A stretch of 42,240 bases of DNA from an uncultured Candidatus Poseidoniales archaeon (lineage in GTDB: Archaea > Thermoplasmatota > Poseidoniia > Poseidoniales > Thalassarchaeaceae), in contig CACOAW010000001.1 of assembly GCA_902625325.1 (NCBI GenBank), forward strand, positions 130,537-172,776. Direction: 5' to 3'. Within the stretch, counting starts at the first letter, position 1. Each line of letters begins with the position of its first letter. Below the pieces are notes generated by a model. It did not search any database and was not told the origin of the DNA. It saw only the letters and a program-made list of their open reading frames with translations. This document shows positions 6,581-32,995 of this stretch, in pieces. Position numbers and translations under genes: made by a program.

Positions 6581-7468
6581 CTACGAACCACCATCTCTAA
6601 CGGACGAAACCAATATTTCGATGGCCTCTCTAACGGTTATAGAACCGTCACATAGTTCTGAGGTGATTTTGTCTATTTCAGGATGGGAAACTAGAATCGA
6701 ATCCCATTCGGAGATTAGTCTCTCCATCATCATCATCTTTCCCCGTGTATTCTGAGGTTCGCATTTCTCAATAATCTCAACAAGTTCCTGTATGCCATGT
6801 CCTTCTTTTGCCGAGACCAGGACAACCTCACGATTGTCATCGCTGGCGAGACTTAGTGAGGAACGTATATGCTGTGCTGCTGAAGATGCACCCGGCAAAT
6901 CTGATTTGTTAACGGCAATAACATCAGCCAACTCAAGAATCCCCGCTTTCTCTGCTTGGATGATGTCCCCCCTATCCGGGCCGTCAACAAGAAGTAGACG
7001 ATCTACCAAGGCAGCTATTCTGAACTCAGACTGTCCTGTTCCTACAGTCTCAACAATTATTCGAGTCCATCCGCATTCTGAAAGTACGCCACATATCGGC
7101 CATAGGACTGGAGAAATGGCACCAGGGGTCTTTCCAGAGGGTATAGACCTCACGAACACGTTCTCTCGCAAATCGTCTTCTCCCTCCATTCTTATTCTAT
7201 CAGCAAGCAAAGAGCCACCGGACAACGGAGATGTCGGATCTAGGGCAAGTACGGCGACGCGTTCACCTGAAGATGCCCATTTCCTGACCATCTGTCCGAT
7301 AAGAGTTGATTTTCCTGATCCCGGAGGTCCTGTAACTCCGAGAACCCAGCCTTTCGAGGTGTTGATACTTGGGGATTCCCCGGATTTAGAGATTGCAGAA
7401 ATTAGCATTGATAGGCTTCTTCGATCGCCTGATTTTGCTGATTCCAATAGATCACTGATGTCAGTCAT
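6581..7468 (-). CDS. meaB: MeaB/ArgK-type P-loop GTPase, methylmalonyl-CoA mutase chaperone
   Basis: G-protein chaperone that gates cobalamin loading and protects methylmalonyl-CoA mutase. The P-loop G-P-P-G-S-G-K-S-T is at residues 47-55 from this start. The family signature E-T-V-G-T-G-Q-S-E follows, then N-K-S-D as the base-recognition motif. The length of about 295 residues is normal. I chose ATG 7468, preceded by a GGGGTGG stretch, over the longer frame from 7513, which would overlap the mutase subunit by 53 nt. The 8-nt overlap with the upstream mutase B12-binding gene is typical of translational coupling. The adjacency to that gene supports the methylmalonyl-CoA mutase role over other ArgK-like functions. 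Confidence 0.93.
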   Translation of the reverse strand: MTDISDLLESAKSGDRRSLSMLISAISKSGESPSINTSKGWVLGVTGPPGSGKSTLIGQMVRKWASSGERVAVLALDPTSPLSGGSLLADRIRMEGEDDLRENVFVRSIPSGKTPGAISPVLWPICGVLSECGWTRIIVETVGTGQSEFRIAALVDRLLLVDGPDRGDIIQAEKAGILELADVIAVNKSDLPGASSAAQHIRSSLSLASDDNREVVLVSAKEGHGIQELVEIIEKCEPQNTRGKMMMMERLISEWDSILVSHPEIDKITSELCDGSITVREAIEILVSSVRDGGS

Positions 7469-7901
7469 TCCAATTCCACCCCGAACCGTCTCCGACTCCA
7501 ACTGGATCTCCATTTTGTTTACGAATCAGAGCCTCATTCAAGAAATCCAAGACATCTGAAGTTGGGGTTCCGGGCCCGAAGACTGCTCTGAGGCCCGATC
7601 GAAATAGGAATTCTATATCTCTTTCCGGAATAATGCCTCCTGCGAAAACAATTACATTTCCTAGTCTGTTATGTACTAGTTGCTCGCAAATCTTTGGTAT
7701 TAGAGAATTATGCGCTCCAGAGAGAGTAGATAGACCGAGAACCTCTGCATCTTCGTCGTTTACAATACGTACAATCTCCTCTGGAGTCTTTCTGAGACCT
7801 GTATAGATGACATCATGACCCCCATCTCTCAATGCTCTGGAGACGACTTTTGCTCCTCTGTCGTGCCCATCTAGTCCAGGTTTGGCAATCACAATTCGCA
7901 T
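7461..7901 (-). CDS. mcmB: Methylmalonyl-CoA mutase, B12-binding (C-terminal/small) subunit
   Basis: Cobalamin-binding subunit of methylmalonyl-CoA mutase, which isomerises methylmalonyl-CoA to succinyl-CoA. The D-G-H-D-R-G motif at residues 11-16 supplies the lower-axial histidine (H13). The G-L-S-T-L-S-G and G-P-G-T motifs of the Rossmann-like B12 fold follow. From ATG 7901 it has 146 residues, matching stand-alone small subunits, and starts with the usual M-R-I-V-I-A-K-P-G-L-D-G. The frame stays open to 8021, but that extension overlaps the divergent carboxylase gene and is probably not coding, although in-frame ATGs at 7928 and 7976 cannot be excluded. The large catalytic subunit is not in the window. 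Confidence 0.93.
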   Translation of the reverse strand: MRIVIAKPGLDGHDRGAKVVSRALRDGGHDVIYTGLRKTPEEIVRIVNDEDAEVLGLSTLSGAHNSLIPKICEQLVHNRLGNVIVFAGGIIPERDIEFLFRSGLRAVFGPGTPTSDVLDFLNEALIRKQNGDPVGVGDGSGWNWND

Positions 7902-8001
7902 GTTTATGTAAGTTGCAAGTGGCAACATGACTTCAAGCAACCGCATATGAAATTCTATTTTCTCAGGAATGCTCATGTGCGGCCTATTCCCGTCCTCCCA
8001 T

Positions 8002-9555
8002 GTGAGTGGAAACTCTGACAAGATTGACGAGCTTAGGCGTCGGAAGGCGAAGTCTCAATCAGGAGGTGGCCAAAATAGGATTTCTGCGCAACACGCTAAA
8101 GGGAAGATGACAGCGAGAGAGAGGGTTCAGGAATTGCTAGATGAGGACTCATTCACTGAAGTTGATGCTTTGGTAGAGCACAGGTGTAGAGACTTTGATA
8201 TGGATAGGAATGTGATTCCTGGAGATGGAGTAGTTTGTGGTTATGGGACCATTGATGGAAGATTAGTTTACTGCTTTGCCCAAGATTTCACCGTATACGG
8301 TGGATCACTAGGTGAGATGCACGGGCTTAAGATATGCAAGATTCTAGACATGGCATTGAAAACAGGAGCTCCAGTAATTGGTCTGAATGATAGTGGTGGT
8401 GCAAGGATTCAGGAAGGGGTCGCCAGTTTGGGTTCCTATGCTGAGATTTTCTTCAGAAATGTCAGATCCAGTGGAGTCATTCCACAGATTTCTGTCATCA
8501 TGGGCCCATGTGCTGGAGGAGCAGTATATTCGCCTGCGATTACTGATTTCGTTGTAATGGTTGAAGAGACATCTCACATGTTCATCACTGGTCCAGAGGT
8601 TATCAAGACCGTTACGAATGAAGAAGTAGGCTTCGAAGATTTAGGAGGGGCAACCACACATGCAACAAAATCAGGAGTAACTCACTTCACCGCAGAGAAT
8701 GATCATGTAGCATTGGACATAGTTAGGGAGCTGGTATCACTAATTCCATCCAACAACCTAGACATTGCGCCATCGATTGAGACTAGTGATCCTCTGGAGA
8801 GAAGGTGTGATTCTCTGGACTCTCTTGTACCCGAAGATCCCAGTCGACCCTATGACATGGGAGAGGTAATTCAGGAGGTTCTAGACTTGGATAGTTTTCT
8901 AGAAATTCAGGATGGTTTTGCTCCGAATATAATTATTGGACTAGGTAGGCTTGGGGGACAGTCGATCGGAGTTGTGGCAAACCAGCCAATGCATCTAGCA
9001 GGCTGTTTGGATATCGATGCCTCTGTTAAAGCAGCAAGATTTGTGCGCTTTTGTGACGCATTTAACATCCCACTGTTGACTTTTGTTGACGTTCCCGGTT
9101 TTCTACCAGGTGCTAGCCAAGAGTGGGGCGGCATAATCAGGCATGGTGCCAAACTACTCTATGCATTCGCAGAGGCAACGGTTCCCAAGATGACAGTTAT
9201 CACTAGGAAGGCGTATGGCGGTGCCTATGATGTGATGTCATCTAAGCATATAAGAGGAGATTACAACATTGCTTGGCCTACTGCTGAACTCGCAGTGATG
9301 GGGGCAAAGGGGGCCGTGCAAATTATTCATAGGAGAAGAATAGATAGTTCGAAAAATCCCGAACAGGAGCGACAGAGGCTAGTTGACGATTACGAGGAGT
9401 CATTTGCAAACCCATACAAGGCTGCTGCATTGGGTTATCTTGACGATGTTATCGTGCCTTCTGAAACTAGGTCTGCTCTAGTCAAGGCATTGGGGGCAAT
9501 TCTGGAGAAAGAAGAGCCTAGGCCCGATAAGAAACATGGAAATATCCCGTTGTGA
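8002..9555 (+). CDS. pccB: Acyl-CoA (probably propionyl-CoA) carboxylase, carboxyltransferase beta subunit
   Basis: The biotin-dependent carboxyltransferase that moves CO2 from carboxybiotin to an acyl-CoA. Both crotonase-fold halves are complete, with [10 protein letters not shown] and G-P-C-A-G-G-A in the N half and [10 protein letters not shown] and A-Y-G-G-A-Y-D-V-M in the C half. In actinobacterial homologues the residue after GGAY helps set acyl preference, and aspartate there goes with propionyl-CoA. Together with the divergent mutase and MeaB genes this favours propionyl-CoA. GTG 8002 begins V-S-G-N-S-D-K-I, close to family starts; an in-frame ATG lies at 7969. The next gene overlaps its stop by 20 nt. 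No biotin carboxylase gene is present here. Confidence 0.93.
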
Positions 9556-12379: not shown

Positions 12380-12501
12380 GTGGCACAGCGACGGTCTTTC
12401 CCGTGGGCTTTCGCACCACAGTACCGGAACCGACGCAGGAGGGCTTGACTTCCGGGTTCGATATGGGACCGGGTAGGACCCCTCCGCTATGGCCGTGCAC
12501 A
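12380..12501 (-). rRNA. rrf: 5S ribosomal RNA
   Basis: The minus strand reads through the archaeal 5S core: C-C-A-T-A-G-C-G-G, then C-C-C-A-T-A-T-C-G-A-A-C, C-C-G-G-A-A-G-T-C-A-A-G, T-A-C-T-G and G-G-G-A-A-A. The terminal helix pairs 12493-12498 with 12383-12388 over six base pairs. Ends are estimated to within a few bases, giving about 122 nt. It lies just downstream of the 23S gene on the same strand. Confidence 0.93.
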
Positions 12502-12569: not shown

Positions 12570-15455
<2,886 letters not shown>

Positions 15456-15510
15456 TATTTCTTATTGTACTCACTAATGTGAGGCCTCTGGTGTCCAGGC
15501 ATATCAATTC
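15456..15510 (-). other. 5' arm of the pre-23S processing stem (bulge-helix-bulge)
   Basis: Pairs with 12519-12568. GGAC (15493-15496) forms the central 4-bp helix and is followed by a 3-nt bulge ACC (15490-15492). The inner helices are AGAG with CUCU, CUCACAU with AUGUGAG, and UAGUG with CACUA. A 3-nt bulge, 4-bp helix, 3-nt bulge is the substrate form of the archaeal tRNA-splicing endonuclease, which excises pre-rRNA. Confidence 0.85.
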
Positions 15511-18828: not shown

Positions 18829-21800
18829 TCATGGACCGTTCTGTTCCCACCAAAGATGCCCATATGCCACCCATTGTTCCATTGACCAGCCGTCTGGAAG
18901 TCCGGTTATTGGTAGAGGCATCGCTCCTTCCGGAACTTGGTGAGTGGGGAGAGTAGGTACTGTTGCCTGAAGCGTGTCATTAATTTCTGACTCTGAGACT
19001 TCCCCAGTTACAACGTCCCCAGTGGTGTAGGTATCGAGAGCAGCTGCTCTTCTTTCTTCCTTGGTACCCGCTTGGAGAGCCGATCCTCGTGGAATCAGTT
19101 CTTCATCCGAATCGACTGGAGAGAATTCCTGTCTGGCTCTGATTCCAAGCGTGATTAGTGCGCCCAAAGCAACTACGAACAGTACTGCAAGAGTCCAGGT
19201 CGGGAGGCCTAAGGTTTCTAACAATCCAGAAATTCCGCCTTGATTAGAGGATTTTGACTTACTAACATCGATAACAAAGGTTGAGTTAGTCAGAGTTGCT
19301 GTAATGTCTTGAGATGTCGAGTTGGCGTAGAACCGCAATTGAGTGAGTCCGTCCTCCGCCGATTTTCTGGGGTTTATTAAAACTGAAATTTCGTAATTTT
19401 CCCCTGGCTCTAATTCCTCTGCAGGCCATTGATATTTTACAGTCCAACCATCGAGTTCTTTGTGAGTGATGAATATCGGAGATTTAGTGTTGCCCTTGTT
19501 TTGCACTTCCAATATTAGAGAAGTTTCCTCTCCCTCAGCGATTCCCTGAATGCTGGAGGTATCAGATTGAATCTCCAGCCAAACCGAGGGAAGGACAATT
19601 ACCTCCATATCTATTGTGATTGTTTGAGTGGAGAGGCTGGGCGATGTAGACTGGATTATCACTGGAACCTTATCCGAGAGGGTTCCCGAGGGAGTTCCAC
19701 TAGGCAACTGTAATGCTATATTGACTACAGAATCCCTATTCATATCCATGGAGAAAGTGCTCCCCGTTAGGAAACCCCCGGACCAACCATCAGGAAGAGT
19801 GCCGAGTGTGAGTTCTATCAACAGCGGTACGTTTCCTGAATTGTGCAGGAAAATATTGGCATTCCCATCTCGTCCCAGAGAGATTGAGAATCCTTCCTCA
19901 GCCTGAACATCTAAAGTCGTGATCTCTTTTACTTCTAGAACCGTCGCATTCGTGATGATATTGTCCTCTAAAGTAGTCTTGATGGTCACGGTGTTTTTGT
20001 CGCCTTTTTCTGAAGCCAGTGGAACAATAGTCCTGATGATTATTCTAGATTCTGAACCAGGATCGATATCTGTTTGTATTGTTGTTACCTCTCCCAATGG
20101 AGGGTCTTCACCGAACAAATAAGCCTGAATCGGCCAAGTATTGCTAGATGATAGTGCCCTCACGTCGAAGGTTAGTGGAATATTTCCCTCATTGGAAATT
20201 GTTAGTATAGTAGAAATTGTGTCTCCATTCTGTACAGCGCGGGATTCAGTAATGGCTACGGGCCCAAATTCGTTCCCCTCCATGTCTGAGATCTGAGTTG
20301 AGAATGCCCTACTCTCTAGAACTTCAACTGTTGCTATCTCCGTAGTTTGTAGATCTGGGTCATTAACCGAAGTTGTGATACAAGTTACTAGGTTTGTATC
20401 TCCTGCTAGGATACCAGACGATGCTGGTGGGACCTTTACACGAATAGGAACGGGAACGAATTGGAGCCTACTTAGCGGACCAATTGTTACTTCTGGAACC
20501 TGGCTGCTTCCTACGTGAACTATCCATCTATCTTCTGTTTCGCAAGAAATTCCGTATTCAGTGGGGCCATTGCCTATGTTCCTGACCGAGAGGGTGAAAA
20601 GTGCAAATTCATTTGGTTTAGCCCCTAGGTCTTCCGTACCAGCCGGAACCGTGTAGAGTCCCTCGACCCTGTCGATATCAACAGAAAGACGAACAGAATG
20701 CGAAATTGTTGGTGCCATCTTATCGTATAGTATGAGGTCGGTCACAAAAAGGCCAGGAAGTGCAAATCTACTCTCCACGTCGGCATCTTCGTCCGTTAAA
20801 TTCAGAGAAATCAGGACTCTGTCTCCAAACTCCCCTGAAGGAGACAGAGTCCATGGTCCTGAGTCGCTGAGGGTCTCGGACCACTCATCCTTAGGAGACG
20901 ACATAATTCCGGAATCGCTTATTTCTTGGACTGCAGAAACCGAAAGTTCCACAGTGGTCTCCGATGTTCCCTCATTGAGTAACTCCAACTGGAAGTTTAC
21001 CCAGCTCTCGGTGCTGGGATTGATGTCCCTATTCCTAGAAGACTGAGACTCCGCGAAATCAGTAGGATAAGACCCATCTTCCATTAGGGGGACGATTCTT
21101 ACACCAATCTCTGTGACGTTAAATTCTAAATCGAAGATGTTGTTATTTGTTCCGATGGTCTCGTCATTCAATTCATCCACTTGAGAAAGGTAATCTAGCG
21201 TTAGTCTAACCAAATGAGTCCCAGTCGACTGAAATGAGTGGTAAATGGAGAATGTCTCAATCTGACCTCCTGTTAGGGAGGGCATTGAGTATGTTCCTAT
21301 TTCGTTTCCATCTGTAACATCTTCAAGAGAAATTGAGTACTGCCCGGTTGGTGCTGCAGCCTGATTTATCCATGAAAGTTGCATGGAAATGGTGTCTCCC
21401 TTTAGAGGGCTGGTTTCTGAGCTGGAAATGGAGTTGGGAACTACTGTCAGGTCGGCCTCTTGCAACTCAATTGCGTTGGAGGAAACAACCAGTGAGAAGT
21501 CCTGGGAAAAGCCTCCTGAATGTCCTATCTTGACTGTCCAAATTCCCGATTCAGCAGAAGCGATTCTAACTCGCTCTAGATTGTTCAAATTATCGATATT
21601 GCCAGTTGACTGACTGAAACCGCTAGCGAAGTCGTTACCCTTGAACTGCTCTCCTGAGGGCGAAGTTACCACTAAGTCTAGATCATTGACTAGCCGACTT
21701 GAATTCTGGTCTGCTGACGAAGATCCTTCCCGGTCGTTCCAAGACAGTGTGGCATCAAGTGCGTTGTTACCAGATACCTCGAAGGTGTAGATGAAACTAT

Positions 21801-23589
21801 GACCGGGTAGAAGACTCCTATCTTGATCTAAAAATAGCGTTTGATTTATTCCGTTGCTTTGGGGAAAAATGCTGTTTGAGATGTTCAGTTGCCCCCAGCC
21901 CTCTTCTGAGTTTGGGACATTTAATTCTCCAATATCTTCAGCACCGTTAACGAGTATTGCCTTAATTAAATTAGAGCTTGGAGATGTAAGTCCGACTTCC
22001 TCTCTCAGGAATTGTCGCGTCATTGCTGAAGCACCCGCGACCACAGGAGCAGCCATGGAAGACCCACTTAGGGTCATATAGAGTGGAGTTGTTCCATCAG
22101 TATGCATCGAATCCGAGCAATCCCCCCCTGCAATTAGGCCAGCCTCCTGGGCTCTAGCGGAGCAAATCATAACACCCGGTGCAACCAATTCGGGCTTTAT
22201 TCGGCCATCGGAAGTAGGTCCTGATGATGATTCGTCATAGACCTGACCCGGAGAATCAGAACCAAATGCACCTGTTGTGGAAGCGCCGACAGTGAGAGAA
22301 TTCTTTGCTGTGCTTGGTGATGCGACACCCGAGTTTGACATATCTCCCGATGAAAAGATTACTAACATCTCCGGATAGTTGTTGGTAAAAAGATCAATAG
22401 ATCTGGAATCCGAAGTGTACTCTCCTACCAGGCTCTCGCTGCCCCAACTATTTGTGTGGATATTCGCATCGTTTAGGAAAGAGTGTTCGAACATATCGTA
22501 CAGAGAACCCCAGCGAGCAAGTATGCCAGAACTATCCACTTCTAACTGGTAGAAATGAAATGTAGACTCAGGAACGATTCCCGTAGAATTTGAGTCTCCC
22601 GTCCCGTCTCCTAGGAGAGTGGCGGTAACATGTGTCCCGTGGCCACTATTAGAGTCAGCACCAGAACTGTCTGGACCAAATAAGTTGTAAATCGGATTTC
22701 TGAGACGATTCCCGAAGTCACCGTGATCCACGTCAAGACCTGTGTCTGAAATCCCTATGACCTCTCCCTCTCCACGTAAATCTAATTCTGATAGTGATCT
22801 TGCATAGTCCACTCCTGAGATTACGCTAGCATTTGAATTATGTATTGTCAGGACGGGGCCGATCTCTATCCTTAGAACGCGTGAATCAGTAGCAAGGGAT
22901 GATATTAGAAGAGATTTAGCGGATTTTACCTTACATAGATATTTGTCGCAGTGAGACTGCAGGTGTAATTCTCCCGTTTTCTCAAAAAGTTCCCTTTCAA
23001 GTTTCGAGAGGTCCTCGGGAGAGTTAGAGGGAGATGGAGTGATATCGAGGTCAATTAGGGCCCCCTCGAGATTCATTAATGGGTACAGTGAATTAGAGAT
23101 TTTCCACATCGCAGGAAACTGACCGACCCACCTAACATGATTCAATTCCTGGATGTTATCGATTTGGTCGCCTGTTCTCCACGGTTCAATGCTAATGAGG
23201 ACGGAATCATCTGGAATATGATCGATGATGCTTATTCCCAGTAAATCTAACGAGTCCTCCAGTTCCTGCAGGTCTGAGCTATGTGACTGTACGATGAAAA
23301 GCCTTCCATCATTGTATTCAGAGAGGCCAATATTTTCCCATGGTCCTGCTGGGGGCAATTCAGTCAGAGGATCGAATTTTCCGAAAGGAGTGTGTATTAG
23401 TCCTGAAGCCTCACTGATTGGATGAACGCCAATCGATGGATTATGAAGAACTACCCAATTGTTTTCTATCGTAGGAGAGGACATAGATCGTGTCCTTTCC
23501 TGGTCAATATCTCCCGTTGAAATCATAGAAGAAATGGGTGAAAGCAAAATCAATAAAACTGCAAAGTAAATTGCTTTTGAAGAAGTCAT
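18829..23589 (-). CDS. Giant cell-surface subtilisin-like serine protease with C-terminal membrane anchor
   Basis: A 1586-residue secreted S8 family protease. Residues 1-25 form a signal peptide and a long N-terminal region may be a propeptide. The catalytic triad is visible: D282 in S-D-T-G, H317 in S-G-H-G-T-H, and S511 in S-G-S-S-M-A-A-P, with N380 as the likely oxyanion residue. After the catalytic domain come a P-domain-like beta region and several repeated beta-sandwich modules, including a CARDB-like one near 710-840. One membrane helix lies at about 1466-1485. A cytoplasmic tail of about 100 residues ends in G-L-P-D-G-W-S-M-E-Q-W-V-A-Y-G and a few more. It probably degrades extracellular protein while staying tethered. 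Confidence 0.93.
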   Translation of the reverse strand: MTSSKAIYFAVLLILLSPISSMISTGDIDQERTRSMSSPTIENNWVVLHNPSIGVHPISEASGLIHTPFGKFDPLTELPPAGPWENIGLSEYNDGRLFIVQSHSSDLQELEDSLDLLGISIIDHIPDDSVLISIEPWRTGDQIDNIQELNHVRWVGQFPAMWKISNSLYPLMNLEGALIDLDITPSPSNSPEDLSKLERELFEKTGELHLQSHCDKYLCKVKSAKSLLISSLATDSRVLRIEIGPVLTIHNSNASVISGVDYARSLSELDLRGEGEVIGISDTGLDVDHGDFGNRLRNPIYNLFGPDSSGADSNSGHGTHVTATLLGDGTGDSNSTGIVPESTFHFYQLEVDSSGILARWGSLYDMFEHSFLNDANIHTNSWGSESLVGEYTSDSRSIDLFTNNYPEMLVIFSSGDMSNSGVASPSTAKNSLTVGASTTGAFGSDSPGQVYDESSSGPTSDGRIKPELVAPGVMICSARAQEAGLIAGGDCSDSMHTDGTTPLYMTLSGSSMAAPVVAGASAMTRQFLREEVGLTSPSSNLIKAILVNGAEDIGELNVPNSEEGWGQLNISNSIFPQSNGINQTLFLDQDRSLLPGHSFIYTFEVSGNNALDATLSWNDREGSSSADQNSSRLVNDLDLVVTSPSGEQFKGNDFASGFSQSTGNIDNLNNLERVRIASAESGIWTVKIGHSGGFSQDFSLVVSSNAIELQEADLTVVPNSISSSETSPLKGDTISMQLSWINQAAAPTGQYSISLEDVTDGNEIGTYSMPSLTGGQIETFSIYHSFQSTGTHLVRLTLDYLSQVDELNDETIGTNNNIFDLEFNVTEIGVRIVPLMEDGSYPTDFAESQSSRNRDINPSTESWVNFQLELLNEGTSETTVELSVSAVQEISDSGIMSSPKDEWSETLSDSGPWTLSPSGEFGDRVLISLNLTDEDADVESRFALPGLFVTDLILYDKMAPTISHSVRLSVDIDRVEGLYTVPAGTEDLGAKPNEFALFTLSVRNIGNGPTEYGISCETEDRWIVHVGSSQVPEVTIGPLSRLQFVPVPIRVKVPPASSGILAGDTNLVTCITTSVNDPDLQTTEIATVEVLESRAFSTQISDMEGNEFGPVAITESRAVQNGDTISTILTISNEGNIPLTFDVRALSSSNTWPIQAYLFGEDPPLGEVTTIQTDIDPGSESRIIIRTIVPLASEKGDKNTVTIKTTLEDNIITNATVLEVKEITTLDVQAEEGFSISLGRDGNANIFLHNSGNVPLLIELTLGTLPDGWSGGFLTGSTFSMDMNRDSVVNIALQLPSGTPSGTLSDKVPVIIQSTSPSLSTQTITIDMEVIVLPSVWLEIQSDTSSIQGIAEGEETSLILEVQNKGNTKSPIFITHKELDGWTVKYQWPAEELEPGENYEISVLINPRKSAEDGLTQLRFYANSTSQDITATLTNSTFVIDVSKSKSSNQGGISGLLETLGLPTWTLAVLFVVALGALITLGIRARQEFSPVDSDEELIPRGSALQAGTKEERRAAALDTYTTGDVVTGEVSESEINDTLQATVPTLPTHQVPEGAMPLPITGLPDGWSMEQWVAYGHLWWEQNGP

Positions 23590-23650: not shown

Positions 23651-24691
23651 TCATGTAGAATAGTAAGTACTGATGGCTGAATCGGTCATTTCAGCGGATT
23701 TTCTCCAGTCTTCCTCGACACCCATCAGTGCCCTGATGCAATCTACATTCTCCGGGATTACGTCACTCTCTTGATGTATCGCTTGAAAATAATACAGTCG
23801 GTCTCCGACAAGTTTCACCCCATCCTCCCAAACGAATATCTCGTGTAAGTCCCCCCACTTCCTACCTATATCTCTGGCCATCTCCATCACCTCTGCGGTA
23901 GTGGGGATTCGGTCCTCGGCACCATTCATTATTATCACCCTAGGGGTCTTTGACCACATTTCGATTATCGACTCTGTAGATAGGCCGTGGCCCTTTGGTA
24001 AATCTGCAATAATACAATGAACATGCATTATTGTTGTTGGAACTGCTACCGCAAGGCTGTTTATCTCAATCTCGGGTTTCACCGTCATGACATCTGGCCC
24101 ATGATGGCTAGGAACCTTGAGAACGGGTTTGATAGCATTAATCGGACCCTTGCCAGAGTCTCCTGGATCAGCCGCACGCCTCACCATTGTACACTCAACT
24201 TTCAACGAGCCACAGTTCTCGAATAGGGGCACGAGTGTTCTAGATAGGCCAGTAGTATTGCAAGAAACTACTCTTGTTCCTTCGGCATTCAGATTCTCCT
24301 TATGATTAGCGGAAGAAGTGTAAGAGAGACCGGTCAGATCGTGTTTTTCTCCTCCCTGGAAAATATATTTTACTCCTGCAGAGCGATATTTCTCTAGATT
24401 CTCAGCACCCAATTTACCAGGGGCACAGTCCACAACCACATCCGCGATCGAAAGCAAATCAGAAAGCCCCCCAGAGCAGTCGTACCCGTTTTTCTCAAAG
24501 AGGGATATTCTTTCTTTATCATCGAAGGTGCAGTAAAGTGGGAATCCTTTCTTTATTGCCAGTTCACAACCGAAGCTCGGGCCAGTCTTAGTAACTCCAA
24601 CAACTTCCATGTCTTCTTGTGCGTCTACCGCATCCGCTACACGCTTACCTATTGTTCCATACCCATTAATTGCCACTTTTATGGTTCCCAT
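23651..24691 (-). CDS. gap: Glyceraldehyde-3-phosphate dehydrogenase, archaeal type
   Basis: The archaeal (type II) phosphorylating GAPDH, 346 residues. The nucleotide-binding motif G-Y-G-T-I-G-K-R is at residues 10-17 and the catalytic cysteine is C144 in S-C-N-T-T-G. It interconverts GAP and 1,3-bisphosphoglycerate, probably with either NAD or NADP, and serves gluconeogenesis or glycolysis. The gene starts opposite the glutamate-synthase-like fusion. The 134-nt space between them contains a repeated 12-mer that may be regulatory. Confidence 0.95.
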   Translation of the reverse strand: MGTIKVAINGYGTIGKRVADAVDAQEDMEVVGVTKTGPSFGCELAIKKGFPLYCTFDDKERISLFEKNGYDCSGGLSDLLSIADVVVDCAPGKLGAENLEKYRSAGVKYIFQGGEKHDLTGLSYTSSANHKENLNAEGTRVVSCNTTGLSRTLVPLFENCGSLKVECTMVRRAADPGDSGKGPINAIKPVLKVPSHHGPDVMTVKPEIEINSLAVAVPTTIMHVHCIIADLPKGHGLSTESIIEMWSKTPRVIIMNGAEDRIPTTAEVMEMARDIGRKWGDLHEIFVWEDGVKLVGDRLYYFQAIHQESDVIPENVDCIRALMGVEEDWRKSAEMTDSAISTYYST

Positions 24692-24747: not shown

Positions 24748-24825
24748 CATAGCGAATTCGGGAAGAGTCAATAATGGGTCGCCTCCTTCTGGTTACAGTA
24801 GTATCACATAAAGGGGAGGATCAAA

Positions 24826-26367
24826 ATGAAAGAATTGGCAATCAAGAGTATGAAACTCAATAGTGATCTGGATAGGTACGTTGAGCAGGCTCTCGAGCAA
24901 GGTAGGCCAGTGAAAATTGGATGGGGAAGGGCCGGTGACGAAAGGCCGAAGGATGGAGAGTTTGGTGTCCTAACGCACTTGCCGGAAGGGGCCAAGGTAC
25001 TATGCCTGGGCAATCTAGGGCCATTGGTAGGAGCTGCAAATAGAGGAGGGACCCTAACTCTTAGAGGAAGTACTGGTTCAATGGTGGCGGCATTCCATGT
25101 CAAAGGAAAGACCGTGGTTGAGAAGGATGTAGGGGATAAAGCTGGATTTGGGATGCTAGGAGGGGAGATAACCATCCAAGGCTCTTCTGGTAGTGAAACA
25201 GGTTCAGCCATGGAAGGAGGAGTCTTAATCGTCAGAGGTCATGCAGGAGATTACCTTGGTTCTAAAATGTCTGGAGGAGCTATTATTGTAATGGGTTCGG
25301 TAGGTTCGGACCCGGGAAACGGAATGTCTGGAGGGAGGATTATTGTCTCGGGAAGCTGCCCGCCTCCACCCGATGGTGTAGAGATGAGATCCATAAAGAA
25401 ATCAGAAATCAAAGAGTTCTCAAAAATCCTAGAGCCTATGGGACTTGAGCTAAATGAGGATGCGTTGGTTTTAGAACCAGGAGAGATAATTTATGACGAG
25501 GATAGGCGCCCGGAGTGTTCAATTCTAGAAGGATTTGAGAAGATTTCCTTACACCCCAATGAAGACTCTCTTGAAGACAATGCCATATTGGATCACTATA
25601 CTCTTCTTGTACAGAATGACTCAGATTCAGAAGGCGCGCTACTTGAAGTTCCCTGGCTAATTAGCTGTCAGACTACATTGGGTTCAGAAGAATGGGAAGG
25701 GTCGGTAGCGCCAGCTATTGTACGCTCGGAAACCAGGACTAATGACCTACTTCTAGTGGGTAAGAAAGAGTTCGCAGAGGCAATAGACTTCGTGAGAAAT
25801 TGCTCTGGACTAATTTTGGACATAACTGATTTTCCCGGGTTTAATGACTCTGAAATTGAGGCTATGGTGATATCTTTGAGGAGTAGGATGCAAAATAACG
25901 CGATAATTCTGCTTAGGGGAAGGATTGACAGGATAGAGAGGGTGTTCAGGTTGGTGATGGACTTGGAACTAGACGGTGCAGTAGTTATGTGTTCAACTCC
26001 CAGTGGTTCCAGACTTGCATCTTCCCTCCCGAAGATTGGCCTTGCATCGAGGGCAATGGGAATTAGTGAGACAGGTAAGTTCGTGATGCTGGAGATCGAC
26101 TTTGAACCGGAGGCCAAGGATTTGCTAATCGCTGTAGCATCTGGTTGTACTGCAATAGTTTCCCCTCACATTAGTGGAAACGTGAGTTCAAAGATTGAGA
26201 TTCTTGGAAAGGAAATACGAGGTTGGATGAGGGATATAGGAGTTGATCGAATAGATAGGGTTGGAAGGAGGAATCTCAGAGCCAACGACTATGATACTGC
26301 TGCGATATCCGGACTGAGGCTTGTTGGATATGAACGTCCTCTGAAAATGTGGTTAGAATTAGGGTGA
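24826..26367 (+). CDS. Glutamate-synthase-like fusion: GXGXG domain plus degenerate FMN-barrel-like domain
   Basis: A 513-residue protein. Residues about 15-185 form the right-handed beta-helix GXGXG domain found at the C-terminus of GltB and in FwdC/FmdC, with successive G-G-x-I/L-x-I/V-x-G turns. After a linker, residues about 260-510 look like a TIM-barrel of the glutamate synthase/FMN-dehydrogenase type, ending with a D-R-V-G-R-R-N-L segment like archaeal GltB ends. No cysteine trio for the 3Fe-4S cluster is seen in the second half, so the barrel may be catalytically weak or non-flavin. A good Shine-Dalgarno (GGGGAGGATC) precedes ATG 24826. It could be a GltS-related or structural subunit; the substrate is unknown. 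Confidence 0.65.
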   Translation: MKELAIKSMKLNSDLDRYVEQALEQGRPVKIGWGRAGDERPKDGEFGVLTHLPEGAKVLCLGNLGPLVGAANRGGTLTLRGSTGSMVAAFHVKGKTVVEKDVGDKAGFGMLGGEITIQGSSGSETGSAMEGGVLIVRGHAGDYLGSKMSGGAIIVMGSVGSDPGNGMSGGRIIVSGSCPPPPDGVEMRSIKKSEIKEFSKILEPMGLELNEDALVLEPGEIIYDEDRRPECSILEGFEKISLHPNEDSLEDNAILDHYTLLVQNDSDSEGALLEVPWLISCQTTLGSEEWEGSVAPAIVRSETRTNDLLLVGKKEFAEAIDFVRNCSGLILDITDFPGFNDSEIEAMVISLRSRMQNNAIILLRGRIDRIERVFRLVMDLELDGAVVMCSTPSGSRLASSLPKIGLASRAMGISETGKFVMLEIDFEPEAKDLLIAVASGCTAIVSPHISGNVSSKIEILGKEIRGWMRDIGVDRIDRVGRRNLRANDYDTAAISGLRLVGYERPLKMWLELG

Positions 26368-26371
26368 ATTT

Positions 26372-28126
26372 ATGCCTACCTTGGACTTCAAGCACTCCAT
26401 TCTCGAATTTGTACAGAAAATCAATGGAATTGACCACAGATGGGAAGAATGGTCAGATTGGCTCCCCGATATTGGTTGCCCTGTTGATAGGAATGACGAA
26501 CAGTCTGTAGAAGTAGAGGTGTTTCCCGATCGTCCTGACCTGCTAAGTCATGAGACAGTGAGTAGGGCCTCCAGGTCATTCCTATGTTTAAGTGAGGAAG
26601 ATCCGGACATGGCTGTAACAACTGGCGAAATTTCTCTCACTATTGAACCTGAACTGGCAAATGTGAGGCCTGTAGTAATCGGAGCAGTTGTTAGGGCAGT
26701 AAATATTGGTACTAATTCTGATGAAAAGGGAGATTTCATCCAGAGTTTGATGGACCATCAAGAAAAGTTGCATATGACACTTGGGAGAAAGAGAAGATTC
26801 GCTTCGATTGGAGTTCATGACCTAAATACACTCAGGCCTCCATTTCGAGTAACAACAGTGTCGTCAGAATTTTCCTTCACTCCACTATCTGGTGTGGAGG
26901 AGATGAGTATTCAGAAAATACTTGCAGAACATCCCAAGGGAATAGAATATGCCCACCTTATGAAGGATTTGAAGAAATTCCCGATAATTATGGACTCTGA
27001 CGATAAGGTTCTATCATTCCCACCAATTATCAATGGAAGTCACACAACAGTAAGCGAGGAAACGACTGACTTTTTCATCGATGTAACGGGTTGGGACAGA
27101 AGAGCGTGTGAAGCATCTCTACTTCTCGTCTGTCTATCTATGTCTGAGAGAGGAGGAGAGATTGAGAGTATCCAACTAAACCATGCAGACGGAAAGCAGT
27201 ATTTGTCTCCAAAAGGAGAAGCCATAACTCATCGAGTTCCTAGCAGTCTGATTAAGAAAATTCTAGGAATTAAATTAACCACGGAAGATTTGTCATCTTC
27301 AATCAAAAAAATGGGCGGTATATTAGAAGAAAGTCGTACCGTTACAGACGGCCCTAACAAGAGGGGAAGGTGGTCAGACTGCGTAGTTGGAGAGGTCGAA
27401 CATCTAATCAAAATGCCTCGATGGAGAAGCGACATCATGCACCCAGTTGATATTGTGGAAGATATCGCGATAGGTTTCGGTTTCCAGAATCTTCCGCTGA
27501 AGCTTTCCACGACACATCTTGATGCGCTCCCATTGAATAACTCTAACTTGAAGAGGAGGGTTGGAGAGAGCATGAGGGCGTGCGGTCTGCAAGAGGTGCA
27601 GAGCCTGACTCTCTCAAACGAAAGAGATCAGTTCGAAAATGTTAGATGGCCAAATGAAGGATATGTTACAGAGATTGCAAATCCAATAACATCGGATCAT
27701 ACTCTTCTAAGACAATACATCCTGCCCTCGCTACTAAGGCTGCTTGCAGCAAATCGCCACCATGAGCTACCACAGAGGGTTTACGAACTAGGAGACGTCA
27801 TCCGAGATTCGAAGAACTTCCTACGAGCGGCATGGGCCTGTGCAGAAGTGGGCAGTGGATTCACTTCTTCAAAGGGCATTGTACAGGCCCTTGTTCGAGA
27901 TATGGGGGCGATTCAAGATGATGTTGTGTTCAGGGCGACAGAAGCTGAGGATGGACCGTGGATAAATGGAAGGGGTAGCCATGTATTTATTCGAGACGAG
28001 AAGATTGGTGAGTTCGGTGAGATTGATCCAAAAGTTAGCGGCTTTTTCGGAATTAAATCTCCGATTCAAGCAGGAGAGATTGACTTAGAGGCAATATACA
28101 GGATAATCCCCGATCCAATATCTTAG
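26372..28126 (+). CDS. pheT: Phenylalanyl-tRNA synthetase beta subunit
   Basis: A 584-residue archaeal/eukaryal-type PheRS beta chain. The N-terminal P-x-L-D domain, the [11 protein letters not shown] motif (residues about 49-59), the B3/B4 editing region, the B5 region (about 280-380) and the catalytic-like C domain with [15 protein letters not shown] are in order. It forms the alpha2-beta2 enzyme with PheS, which is not in the window. ATG 26372 lies 4 nt after the preceding stop, so it is operonic with the glutamate-synthase-like gene. It ends by overlapping a small convergent gene by 4 nt. Confidence 0.93.
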
Positions 28127-29193: not shown

Positions 29194-30903
29194 ATGACTG
29201 AGGAGGAAGTTTTCTGTTTGGAAGATCGGGATGCGGTTCGCAAATATGCATTACAGAACGCTATAGAGTACAGCGGCAAAGGGCAACCTGGAAGCGTTCT
29301 AGGTAGAGTTCTTGGAGAGAGAGAACAACTTAGAACCCGTGTAAAGAGCCTACTATCATTAGTAGAGAAAGAGGTAATACGGGCTAATTCTATAGCTCGT
29401 GAAGATGGAATCGAAGGGGTTCGTAAAGAGTTGGAGAGTTTAGCTCCAGAGGCCCTGGACAGGGAGAGGCATAAGAAAAATGAGGGTTTGAGGGAACTTC
29501 CAGGAAATACATCAGAAGTAATCCTGAGATTCGCCCCTAACCCCAATGGCCCTTTATCCATAGGACATTCAAGAGGGGTGGCTATCAATTCCCTATACGC
29601 AGATAAATATCAAGGCAAGATAGTACTCAGGTTTGATGACACAGATACTAAGGTAAAACCTCCAATGGTTGATGCCTACGCTTGGATAGAAGAAGAGTTC
29701 GAGTGGATGTCAGGAAAGGCTGCAGATGTAGTGATTAGAGCTAGCGAGCGGATGCCAATATATCTCCAACACGCTGAAAAGATGTTGATTGGAGGTTTTG
29801 GCTATGTTTGCAAATGTACTGCTGAGGATTTTCGTGAGTTCAGAGTTTCAAAAACTGAATGTCCATGTAGACATAAGTCGGTCAAGCAGAATATGGACTG
29901 TTGGAACAGAATGAACTCCGGAGAAATTGACGAGGGAGGCGCTGTTGTCAGGGTAAAGACCGAAATGGATCTGCCGAATCCAGCTTTGAGAGACTGGCCC
30001 GCATTAAGGATTCAGCATTCTCCGCATCCAATAGTCGGTGACAAGTACAAGGTCTGGCCTCTGTTAGATTTCCAAAGCGCCATTGAAGACCATCTGCAAG
30101 GAGTAAGCCACATCATTAGAGGAAAGGATTTGATGGACAGCACAAGAAAGCAGACTATTCTGTACGAACACTTCGGTTGGGATTACCCTGAGCCATTGTA
30201 TTGGGGCAGGGTTAAGATACATGAGTTTGGAGGTTTCTCTACCTCTGGAATGTCCTCATCCATTGATTCGGGAAAATTCTCGGGGTGGGACGATCCAAGG
30301 CTACCTACACTCAGAGCAATGCGGCGTCGCGGATTTGATCCCCGCTCTTTGAGAGAGCTTTGGGAAGGAGTTGGCCTTACTCAGAAGGATATCTCAATCT
30401 CATTGAAGACATTGGAATCATTCAATTCTAGGATAATAGATGGGGAGTGCGAAAGAAGGGTTTTCGTCTCGAATCCGAAAAGTCTGGATATTAGTGCCGA
30501 AAATATCCCCTCGAGATTAATTATGGCAAGACATCCAGATGGCCAAATAGAGGGTTTCAGGGAGTGGGAAGTCGGCCTGAATTTATCAATTCAAGAAAGC
30601 GACTTTATCCAAGGAAAACTTAGGTTGAAAGACTTCGCAGATATCAAAATATCAGGTTCTTCTGCAACCATAGAGTCAATTGATCGGAGCGACGATCGGA
30701 AAATAGTACATTGGATTCCAGATAACTTGTCCTCAGAGGCGATACTCTCAGTACCTGATGGTGAGGAGATTTCTGAGGTAAATGGGGTTCTAGAGGACTA
30801 TGAACTCGCAGAGGGCGAAGTATACCAACTTGAGCGAGTTGGTTTTGCTAAATTCGAAGGATTTCAAGACGGGATTGCAAGGCTCCTGTGGCTACACGAT
30901 TAG
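29194..30903 (+). CDS. gltX: Glutamyl-tRNA synthetase, archaeal type
   Basis: A 569-residue class I synthetase of the archaeal/eukaryal GluRS branch, with an N-terminal extension of about 100 residues before the Rossmann fold. The HIGH motif appears as S-I-G-H at 122-125. A C-K-C...C-P-C set in the acceptor-binding region could hold zinc. The KMSKS counterpart reads G-M-S-S-S, a degenerate form. The anticodon-binding beta-barrels follow. In archaea this enzyme usually charges both tRNA-Glu and, as a non-discriminating enzyme, can work with GatDE; the latter is inference. It starts 44 nt after rnhB. Confidence 0.93.
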   Translation: MTEEEVFCLEDRDAVRKYALQNAIEYSGKGQPGSVLGRVLGEREQLRTRVKSLLSLVEKEVIRANSIAREDGIEGVRKELESLAPEALDRERHKKNEGLRELPGNTSEVILRFAPNPNGPLSIGHSRGVAINSLYADKYQGKIVLRFDDTDTKVKPPMVDAYAWIEEEFEWMSGKAADVVIRASERMPIYLQHAEKMLIGGFGYVCKCTAEDFREFRVSKTECPCRHKSVKQNMDCWNRMNSGEIDEGGAVVRVKTEMDLPNPALRDWPALRIQHSPHPIVGDKYKVWPLLDFQSAIEDHLQGVSHIIRGKDLMDSTRKQTILYEHFGWDYPEPLYWGRVKIHEFGGFSTSGMSSSIDSGKFSGWDDPRLPTLRAMRRRGFDPRSLRELWEGVGLTQKDISISLKTLESFNSRIIDGECERRVFVSNPKSLDISAENIPSRLIMARHPDGQIEGFREWEVGLNLSIQESDFIQGKLRLKDFADIKISGSSATIESIDRSDDRKIVHWIPDNLSSEAILSVPDGEEISEVNGVLEDYELAEGEVYQLERVGFAKFEGFQDGIARLLWLHD

Positions 30904-30918
30904 TGGAGTTGAATTTCA

Positions 30919-30924
30919 TTTAAA
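30919..30924 (+). promoter_or_regulatory. Possible TATA element before the zinc-ribbon membrane protein
   Basis: TTTAAA lies just after the gltX stop at 30903. Archaeal TATA elements sit about 25 nt upstream of the transcription start, which would fall close to TTG 30947. Weak evidence from position and composition only. Confidence 0.3.
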
Positions 30925-30985
30925 CTGGCATATTTTCGCTGAAAGTTTGCGTGGCATTGAAGGGGCCCGTCCGAATCAGAGTAAC

Positions 30986-32995
30986 GTGGAAGGCGCCGTT
31001 TCAAGATTTGCCGTCATTTTTTCCTCGATGATGGTAATGGTAGTTTTCTCTCCAATGATGGCTAGTGCTCAAGAGAACAATGACTGCTGTGAATCTCCAG
31101 ATGATTTCGATTTATTTTTGATAGGAGACCCAGATAGTGGGCAATTGACCCCATTCTCTAATGAACTAGAAGAGGAGAAGTCCATGGAAGTGACTTCATC
31201 GGTTTTCGGAGAGGTTGAAATCGGTACCTGGATGATTGTTTGGGGAGAATCGGGGAGTTACTCTTCGGGAACCTGGACCTTCACCATCCCGTATGAGGTG
31301 AAGGACTCTACTGGGGTATCTGCGAACGCAACGGTGGTAGTAAAGGTCGGTGGAAATACCTACGAAAGCTCGGGACAGCTCCCAGCAGTTTATCTCAGCG
31401 AATCGGGTGAGCTCTCTATTCCTATAGAGGTACAGGACGGTCAATACTCTAAAAATGACAAGATCGAAATCACATTCTCAGTACGGAGCATGATTTTTTC
31501 AAATCCGGGCAGTGAATCTGGAATAAACTTCTACTGGGGTTCTGAAGAGTATGCGGCGGCAATGTCCATGTCATTCCCGCTGGTTAATGTGGAAATTCGT
31601 GATGCTAGTGTAAAGGGAAGTCTGGTTTTCTTCCCAGTTAGGCTGAGTTCTGGCTTCGGGGACAGAATGTGGACCTCGTCATCTGGTGGCCTATTGGTTC
31701 AGAATGTTGAAATCTCAGAAAGCCCGATTGTTAACTCCAATGAAGACTGGGTGGATGTAACATTCGTTTGGGATCCTGGTGAGAGCAACGGAGGTTCAGT
31801 CAGGACGGATTTCCATATTTCTCTTCAGAGCTCACTAGTGATTGAAGCGAATAAAATTCACGATATTACGCTCGGCCAAGACACAGGAGACAATAGTTGG
31901 TATCCCGAGGAAGAGCCCCCCCGGACTGGAGGCTCGGGACTTGATCTTGAAATCAACTGCAAATATGACGGTAATTCTATCGAAAGAAAGACGACTATAT
32001 CATTCGACGGTGCCATGTCTCAATGGATGAGATGGGGGCTAGACAATATTGGAAATAAGAGCCTGGGGTCAAACAGTTGGTGGAGGAATCTGAATACGTT
32101 TTCAGATCAGGTTAGCTCCTCGGAGAAGCAGAACGGGAGAGTGGACAACTCCGAACTGTCGGCCTTAGAAACCCACCTTAGGGGCTCGAAGACCGATCTT
32201 AAATCGTTCCTCTCCAGTGGTTTGATGGTTGATCCAGAGGCCGTTTTTGGTGTGGATCCAGTCAACTTCGGCCCTTTGGAAATTAGCATAGACTTGGGGT
32301 CTTCTAGAGCTTTTAATTCGGACTCTATTTCACTAAGAGTTTCGTCGGTATATTACGTCTCTGATAGTGGCTCCAGACAAGTACTGATTGAGGATTTTGT
32401 TAGACCGGGGGGCTATGATTTCTGGGACAAGGTGGGACTCTCATTCGAGATAAGAACAGGGATGCTTTCTGGTTTCGGAGGGATATACCTAGACAATGAA
32501 GAGATAGACTATACTCATAGGAGGTGGATATTGATGGAAATAATCACTATGGAGAGTTCCGATATCGAATCCGATACAGACTTCAGAATGGAGTTTGGCG
32601 CTGAAAACGCCCTCCTATTCAGTCCATTGATATCCGCGATGATATCGGTATTCGCTCTTTGCTTGGCTCTAGGAATTGGTATGGCTCTAACTAGGAGGAG
32701 GACAAGGGCACCGAGTATGATCATGATTGGAGTTTTGGGCGTTCTATCGCTATCCATTTATTGGTTCGGTTTACCTATGCCAATAGTTCTAGGGGTTGTT
32801 TGCTCCAGTGTACTCCTTGTTTTCCCCGCTTCAGTAATTTCTCCAGTCGTTGAGGATGCGGGAGCTCAGAGAAATTTGAATAAGGGCGGAATGGTAAGGT
32901 GCCCTTCGTGTGGAAAAAAAGTTCCTGTCGAGTCAGATATTAGACCACTGAGGATTGATTGCCCTGCATGCGGAAGCACCCTAAGGATAGAATAG
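30986..32995 (+). CDS. Large secreted/membrane protein with C-terminal zinc ribbon
   Basis: About 670 residues. A signal peptide lies just after the chosen start (hydrophobic run, then M-A-S-A-Q). A long extracytoplasmic beta-rich region follows, without recognised family. Then two or three membrane helices (about 545-630) and a short cytosolic zinc ribbon with C-P-S-C-G and C-P-A-C-G at the C-terminus. Because the frame extends far upstream into gltX, the start is uncertain: GTG 30986 fits the signal peptide, while TTG 30947 is 23 nt after a TTTAAA (30919-30924) and would suit a leaderless transcript. It is convergent with the next gene. An outside sensing region joined to an inside zinc site suggests signalling, but this is inference. 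Confidence 0.72.
   Translation: MEGAVSRFAVIFSSMMVMVVFSPMMASAQENNDCCESPDDFDLFLIGDPDSGQLTPFSNELEEEKSMEVTSSVFGEVEIGTWMIVWGESGSYSSGTWTFTIPYEVKDSTGVSANATVVVKVGGNTYESSGQLPAVYLSESGELSIPIEVQDGQYSKNDKIEITFSVRSMIFSNPGSESGINFYWGSEEYAAAMSMSFPLVNVEIRDASVKGSLVFFPVRLSSGFGDRMWTSSSGGLLVQNVEISESPIVNSNEDWVDVTFVWDPGESNGGSVRTDFHISLQSSLVIEANKIHDITLGQDTGDNSWYPEEEPPRTGGSGLDLEINCKYDGNSIERKTTISFDGAMSQWMRWGLDNIGNKSLGSNSWWRNLNTFSDQVSSSEKQNGRVDNSELSALETHLRGSKTDLKSFLSSGLMVDPEAVFGVDPVNFGPLEISIDLGSSRAFNSDSISLRVSSVYYVSDSGSRQVLIEDFVRPGGYDFWDKVGLSFEIRTGMLSGFGGIYLDNEEIDYTHRRWILMEIITMESSDIESDTDFRMEFGAENALLFSPLISAMISVFALCLALGIGMALTRRRTRAPSMIMIGVLGVLSLSIYWFGLPMPIVLGVVCSSVLLVFPASVISPVVEDAGAQRNLNKGGMVRCPSCGKKVPVESDIRPLRIDCPACGSTLRIE

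Follow-up and report, generated by a model that had tools for sequence, protein, structure and literature searches.

A core gene of marine group II archaea may encode a structural pseudoenzyme derived from a fused glutamate synthase gene pair

The stretch of DNA analyzed here (the window; 42,240 nucleotides), from a Candidatus Poseidoniales archaeon, carries an open reading frame of 513 amino acids at 24826..26367 (+), preceded by the sequence GGGGAGG (24813..24819, +), which lies six bases 5' of the ATG and presumably serves as a ribosome-binding site. The encoded fusion protein unites a GXGXG right-handed β-helix with an N-terminal helix (residues 1-225; 24826..25500, +), a TIM barrel of the type found in FMN oxidoreductases (residues 227-478; 25504..26259, +) and a C-terminal tail, R.NLRA...TA..SGLRL.GY.RPL..W (residues 479-513; 26260..26364, +), which is the most conserved part of our alignments. 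Within the first of these segments lies a loop conserved among Poseidoniales, IGW...PK.GE.G....LP (residues 31-53; 24916..24984, +), evident in alignment A1 and partly of low predicted confidence (pLDDT dips at residues 34-36). The next gene, identified by Pfam as pheT, encoding the β chain of phenylalanyl-tRNA synthetase (26372..28126, +), starts 4 bases after the stop codon and follows the fusion gene at 80/80 named loci. The divergent neighbor on the other side, a glyceraldehyde-3-phosphate dehydrogenase-like gene by Pfam (GAPDH; 23651..24691, −), is found upstream at 76 of the 80, the remaining four being loci that start at a contig end. Fusion proteins of the closest named loci are 88-94% identical to that of the window. 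The order's second family has GAPDH and pheT flanking the fusion gene at all 16 fetched loci, with 73-81% and 42-49% identity, respectively, to the window's genes, and 30-35% for the fusion protein itself.

Several other features of this region merit mention. A 1586-residue subtilase with CARDB and Ig-like domains is encoded at 18829-23589 (−), and a relative of it lies next to GAPDH at most loci from Poseidoniales. Downstream, a 731-residue protein (30800-32995, +) has weak C-terminal zinc-ribbon matches as its sole matches; at roughly one in four named loci, its relatives lie downstream of a gltX-type gene. The segment 12380-15458 (−) holds archaeal 23S (12570-15458) and 5S (12380-12500) rRNA genes, and an Rfam search of the window gave no 16S rRNA. 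A MeaB-type GTPase near a carboxyltransferase (6581-9555) suggests propionyl/methylmalonyl-CoA metabolism. At three loci, L022 (genome G001), L029 (G016) and L126 (G129), two overlapping frames together make up the fusion gene itself, and either sequencing errors or real frame breaks are possible.

An earlier note on this DNA had proposed a GXGXG β-helix in the N-terminal half of the protein and a degenerate, glutamate synthase-like barrel in the second half, and both proposals were borne out. PF01493 (GXGXG) matches residues 57-176 above its cut-off (E 1.1e-11), and the rest of the protein matches no Pfam family at E<=1; neither PF01645, for which the curated cut-off was also not reached, nor PF01070 gave a match at that threshold. 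The AlphaFold2 model, built with 72 related sequences as input, has a pLDDT of 90.6 and a pTM of 0.89, and the barrel folded alone is predicted nearly as well (pLDDT 89.9, pTM 0.89). Comparison with GltB and FwdC, suggested in the earlier note, places residues 4-222 on the C-terminal β-helix of glutamate synthase (1ofe_A, residues 1242-1500; Z 22.4, 2.6 Å over 208 residues) and residues 1-225 on FhcC (6s6y_C; Z 21.6, 3.4 Å over 211 residues). Residues 226-494 form a TIM barrel in the full-length model (Z 18.6, 3.6 Å over 249 residues), and the barrel alone resembles flavocytochrome b2 (Z 19.7, 3.1 Å over 246 residues). Given the high confidence of the prediction for β-helix and TIM barrel alike, an unrelated fold for the second half can be set aside. 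No glutamate synthase chain appears among the best 50 structural matches of the barrel alone, an absence that is no evidence against kinship. The end of the tail is predicted with low confidence in the monomer model (pLDDT 69 and 43 in its last two blocks), which may reflect a limit of the prediction.

The barrel is complete as a fold and eroded in its motifs. Canonical controls (L062, L064, L067, L125 and L247) all carry the cysteines of the [3Fe-4S] cluster, the GGTGA sequence, which we take to be the substrate loop of glutamate synthase, and GG...KA.ALGA, presumably the flavin-phosphate motif. As the earlier note suspected, the cluster cysteines are missing: the triad pattern occurs in 0/72 sequences of alignment A3, comprising the window and 71 of the 80 loci (four with unknown residues and five with incomplete or broken frames were dropped), and in 1/29 of alignment A1, by spacing only, the latter holding 29 of 45 full-length members from both families of the order. 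GGTGA and GG...KA.ALGA are likewise absent from the window protein, and inspection of the FMN-binding residues showed that the flavin-phosphate glycines are gone from its barrel. Other positions are strongly kept in A3—R369, L401-P402 and G440 in 72/72, D432 and K/R364 in 70/72—and D383, G394 and G405 are also well conserved. In A1, R369 is retained in 25/29 and position 364 is variable.

Sequence profiles connect this eroded barrel to its canonical counterparts. A profile of the window family's C-terminal half (29 members) matches barrels of other Thermoplasmatota, the intermediate lineages, at E 3.4e-15, these in turn match canonical glutamate synthase barrels at E 2.7e-56, and the window family matches the canonical barrels directly at E 3.2e-7. 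As controls, the same profile matches IMP dehydrogenase at E 0.045, and the best of 50 column-shuffled profiles reached 0.019; these reject a chance resemblance among TIM barrels. Removing the tail weakens the matches to 4.9e-4 for the intermediates and 2.6e-5 for the canonical barrels, so part of the signal rests on the tail. By the measure of these profiles, the barrel is tied to glutamate synthase rather than to IMP dehydrogenase.

The arrangement of the two domains has a simple candidate origin. The earlier note described them as fused in reversed order relative to GltB; the order, GXGXG then barrel, stands, and no true rearrangement underlies it, as archaeal genomes usually carry the two genes in this sequence. 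Of nine separate pairs in other Thermoplasmatota, eight (L109, L110, L112, L113, L125, L127, L239 and L246, the exception being L247) have the GXGXG gene immediately 5' of its barrel partner, and a fusion of such neighbors gives the observed domain order. Lineages f7, f8 and f11 have the two as separate genes; a single fused gene is present in f33, f26, f13, f20, f3 and Poseidoniales.

Searches of the phylum, covering 292 genomes out of a larger group, also place the losses in context. Beyond the class, many matches are canonical proteins or IMP dehydrogenase-level matches. Among the tail-bearing relatives in other Thermoplasmatota, GGTGA is missing by pattern in all, and the other motifs are distributed unevenly: cysteines and flavin-phosphate motif are both kept in f8, f25 and one of two f7 genomes, and likewise in f33, where GT replaces GG; the flavin-phosphate motif alone is kept in the other f7 genome; f26 and f28 keep the cysteines only; and f3, f11, f12, f13, f20 and Poseidoniales have neither by pattern. 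Most of these relatives end in ..AA.TG..L.GY...LPMW.H, several f11 members in PFWRH, and f28 has a shorter end, some rows of this comparison being cut by contig ends. The barrel tree, from which a planned canonical row from L238 was dropped for want of a frame >=350 amino acids with GGTGA, has very long branches and many low supports and leaves the order of losses unsettled; the graded series is therefore a present-day range rather than a proven path. Neighboring genes in these lineages include isopentenyl-diphosphate isomerase with polyprenyl synthase, an aromatic lyase and the α subunit of citrate lyase, and both f7 genomes have a non-discriminating aspartyl-tRNA synthetase (Asp-tRNA(Asn) ligase) immediately upstream. 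Because neighbors vary by lineage, the neighborhood indicates no partner, and we draw no conclusion on a functional link from it. As a separate observation, a gene for a histidine ammonia-lyase-like aromatic amino acid lyase adjoins the cysteine-bearing members L115, L126 and L244 (f26 and f28).

Within its own order, the fusion gene is present in 55/60 relatives, including 22/22 that are at least 90% complete, and each of the five relatives without it is below 90%; it belongs to the core gene set of Ca. Poseidoniales, the marine group II archaea. Despite rapid divergence between families, the protein is under purifying selection. Among 7 of the 80 loci compared, with two saturated, five close pairs give a dN/dS of 0.12-0.17 for the whole protein, 0.14-0.27 for the barrel and 0.04-0.11 for the tail; pheT, available in 4 of the 7, gives 0.10-0.17 for comparison. 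In 5/5 unsaturated pairs, dN and dN/dS of the barrel exceed those of helix and tail. These ratios reject a pseudogene.

Whether a complete glutamate synthase lies elsewhere in the genome was a further check raised in the earlier note, and for the window's own genome (G000; 1.42 Mb, 78.7% complete) none was found: the fusion gene is the sole GXGXG match and the sole PF01645 match is IMP dehydrogenase. Nor was glutamate dehydrogenase found in this incomplete genome; it is present in 5/5 near-complete Poseidoniales checked. A search with the single family PF13522 (glutaminase domain) returned two proteins in G000, one with SIS domains (GlmS-like) and one of 510 residues. Six relatives of the window's own family (G011, G017, G028, G029, G031 and G035) do possess a gene for a true synthase barrel (L062-L067), near which five of the six encode a GXGXG protein of 860-900 residues; the one of these that was scanned, L055, combines GATase and GXGXG domains. 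The fusion protein coexists with the true barrel gene in 5/6 (all but G028). A second glutamate synthase barrel in G049 (L061), bacterial-looking by eye and beside a ferredoxin-type protein, may be contamination or gene transfer.

Drawing on predicted fold, homology, conservation, motif losses, selection and synteny, we give somewhat better than even chances to the protein being a pseudoenzyme or scaffold derived from a fused glutamate synthase gene pair, and not a glutamate synthase. Its origin would lie in tandem archaeal glutamate synthase genes, GXGXG subunit followed by FMN-barrel subunit, that fused; the barrel would then have lost iron-sulfur cluster, substrate loop and flavin-phosphate site while keeping its fold. 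The present protein would be a non-redox pseudoenzyme, presumably cofactor-free, in which β-helix and empty barrel form one rigid body. The tail (GY.RPL..W) and the loop at residues 31-53 would be the most likely elements to dock a partner, a neighboring subunit or a ligand, on the model of the β-helices of glutamate synthase and FwdC that brace neighboring active sites. A bracing or docking role best fits a β-helix joined to an emptied barrel with a kept tail, and the protein's function is probably structural rather than that of a glutamate synthase enzyme.

The main rival is that the barrel now serves a different enzymatic purpose, because R369, D383, G394, L401-P402, G405, D432 and G440 are so well conserved that they could represent a re-purposed active site, which speaks against a pseudoenzyme. 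Such an enzyme would do without an iron-sulfur cluster and perhaps use a different or differently bound cofactor; the near-invariance of its residues in A3, the completeness of the barrel fold and the retention of the gene in all near-complete relatives agree with it. Across both families of the order, however, R369 and position 364 are less constant, the barrel is the part that changes fastest in every unsaturated pair, and the usual flavin-phosphate glycines are gone, and we consider continued catalysis unlikely, if still a serious contender. The reading of the protein as a functional glutamate synthase subunit in unusual arrangement is close to refuted: both halves are homologous to glutamate synthase, but cluster cysteines, GGTGA loop and flavin-phosphate motif are all missing, some relatives have the fusion gene together with a true synthase, and the PF13522 frames of six Poseidoniales genomes measure 510-627 amino acids, apart from one of 901 residues that is part of G017's true synthase. 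The same evidence bears on the view in the earlier note that a place before pheT is odd for nitrogen assimilation; the position itself is as described there, and it is odd only if the protein is a nitrogen-assimilation enzyme. The evidence is against its being one. Gene order is also what an accessory role in translation, with phenylalanyl-tRNA synthetase (PheRS) or other aminoacyl-tRNA synthetases, builds on—for PheRS it is the whole basis—given the adjacency of pheT at every named locus and the aspartyl-tRNA synthetase beside both f7 genes. Different neighbors in other lineages, and the fact that a fixed gene order inside one archaeal order is explicable by inheritance alone, make this role improbable.

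Extending the pseudoenzyme reading to the phylum, we tentatively suggest, at a little short of even chances, that this core marine group II protein is a structural pseudoenzyme whose Thermoplasmatota relatives represent successive stages from an iron-sulfur flavoenzyme to a scaffold devoid of cofactors, the tail being the functional element that was retained. Marine group II archaea are abundant in the surface ocean, and the GXGXG domain invites misreading of this protein as glutamate synthase or formylmethanofuran dehydrogenase, an error that would distort the view of their nitrogen or C1 metabolism. That every near-complete relative keeps the gene when its recognizable chemistry is gone indicates an unrecognized role. 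The range of partly eroded relatives, moreover, allows the transition from enzyme to non-enzyme to be tested in existing proteins. Each domain is already known singly and a fusion of GXGXG and barrel has been published; our literature search found no description of the Poseidoniales form without cofactor motifs, nor of the partly eroded relatives.

Comparison with known systems shows what is shared and what is distinctive. FMN-dependent 2-hydroxyacid oxidases, such as flavocytochrome b2 and glycolate oxidase, have the same barrel fold, as the structural match above illustrates, at 13-18% identity; the fusion protein differs in having neither a PF01070 match nor the flavin-phosphate glycines. 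FwdC/FhcC, the best PDB sequence matches by phmmer, share the β-helix fold and differ in being without such a barrel. Identity with FwdC is rejected, as the protein scores 68.9 bits with TIGR03122 (the FwdC equivalog) against a cut-off of 130.65, and FwdA exceeded its cut-off in 0/8 genomes compared with 2/14 control genomes. In the account of PMC11656701, FwdC stabilizes an internal cavity joining two active sites and is likened to the glutamate synthase β-helix; for glutamate synthase itself, PMC8097209 describes an ammonia tunnel lined by the synthase and central domains. One published fusion comes from Ignicoccus hospitalis, whose Igni408 likewise places GXGXG in front of an FMN barrel in one protein (PMC2614490), a likeness of description only. 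Igni408 differs in its additional ferredoxin domain, the arrangement being GXGXG-ferredoxin-FMN, in its separate neighboring glutaminase gene, Igni407, and in being a predicted synthase, and is described in that source as unique. The closest relatives are the archaeal glutamate synthase subunits (PF01493 and PF01645), which have the same two domains in the same gene order as the Thermoplasmatota operons and are homologous to the fusion protein in the C-terminal part of the barrel and a tail segment, LRA..TAA.TG..L.G in L125. Unlike them, the Poseidoniales protein is fused, is devoid of cluster cysteines, GGTGA loop and flavin-phosphate motif, and closes on GY.RPL..W in place of the canonical ends.
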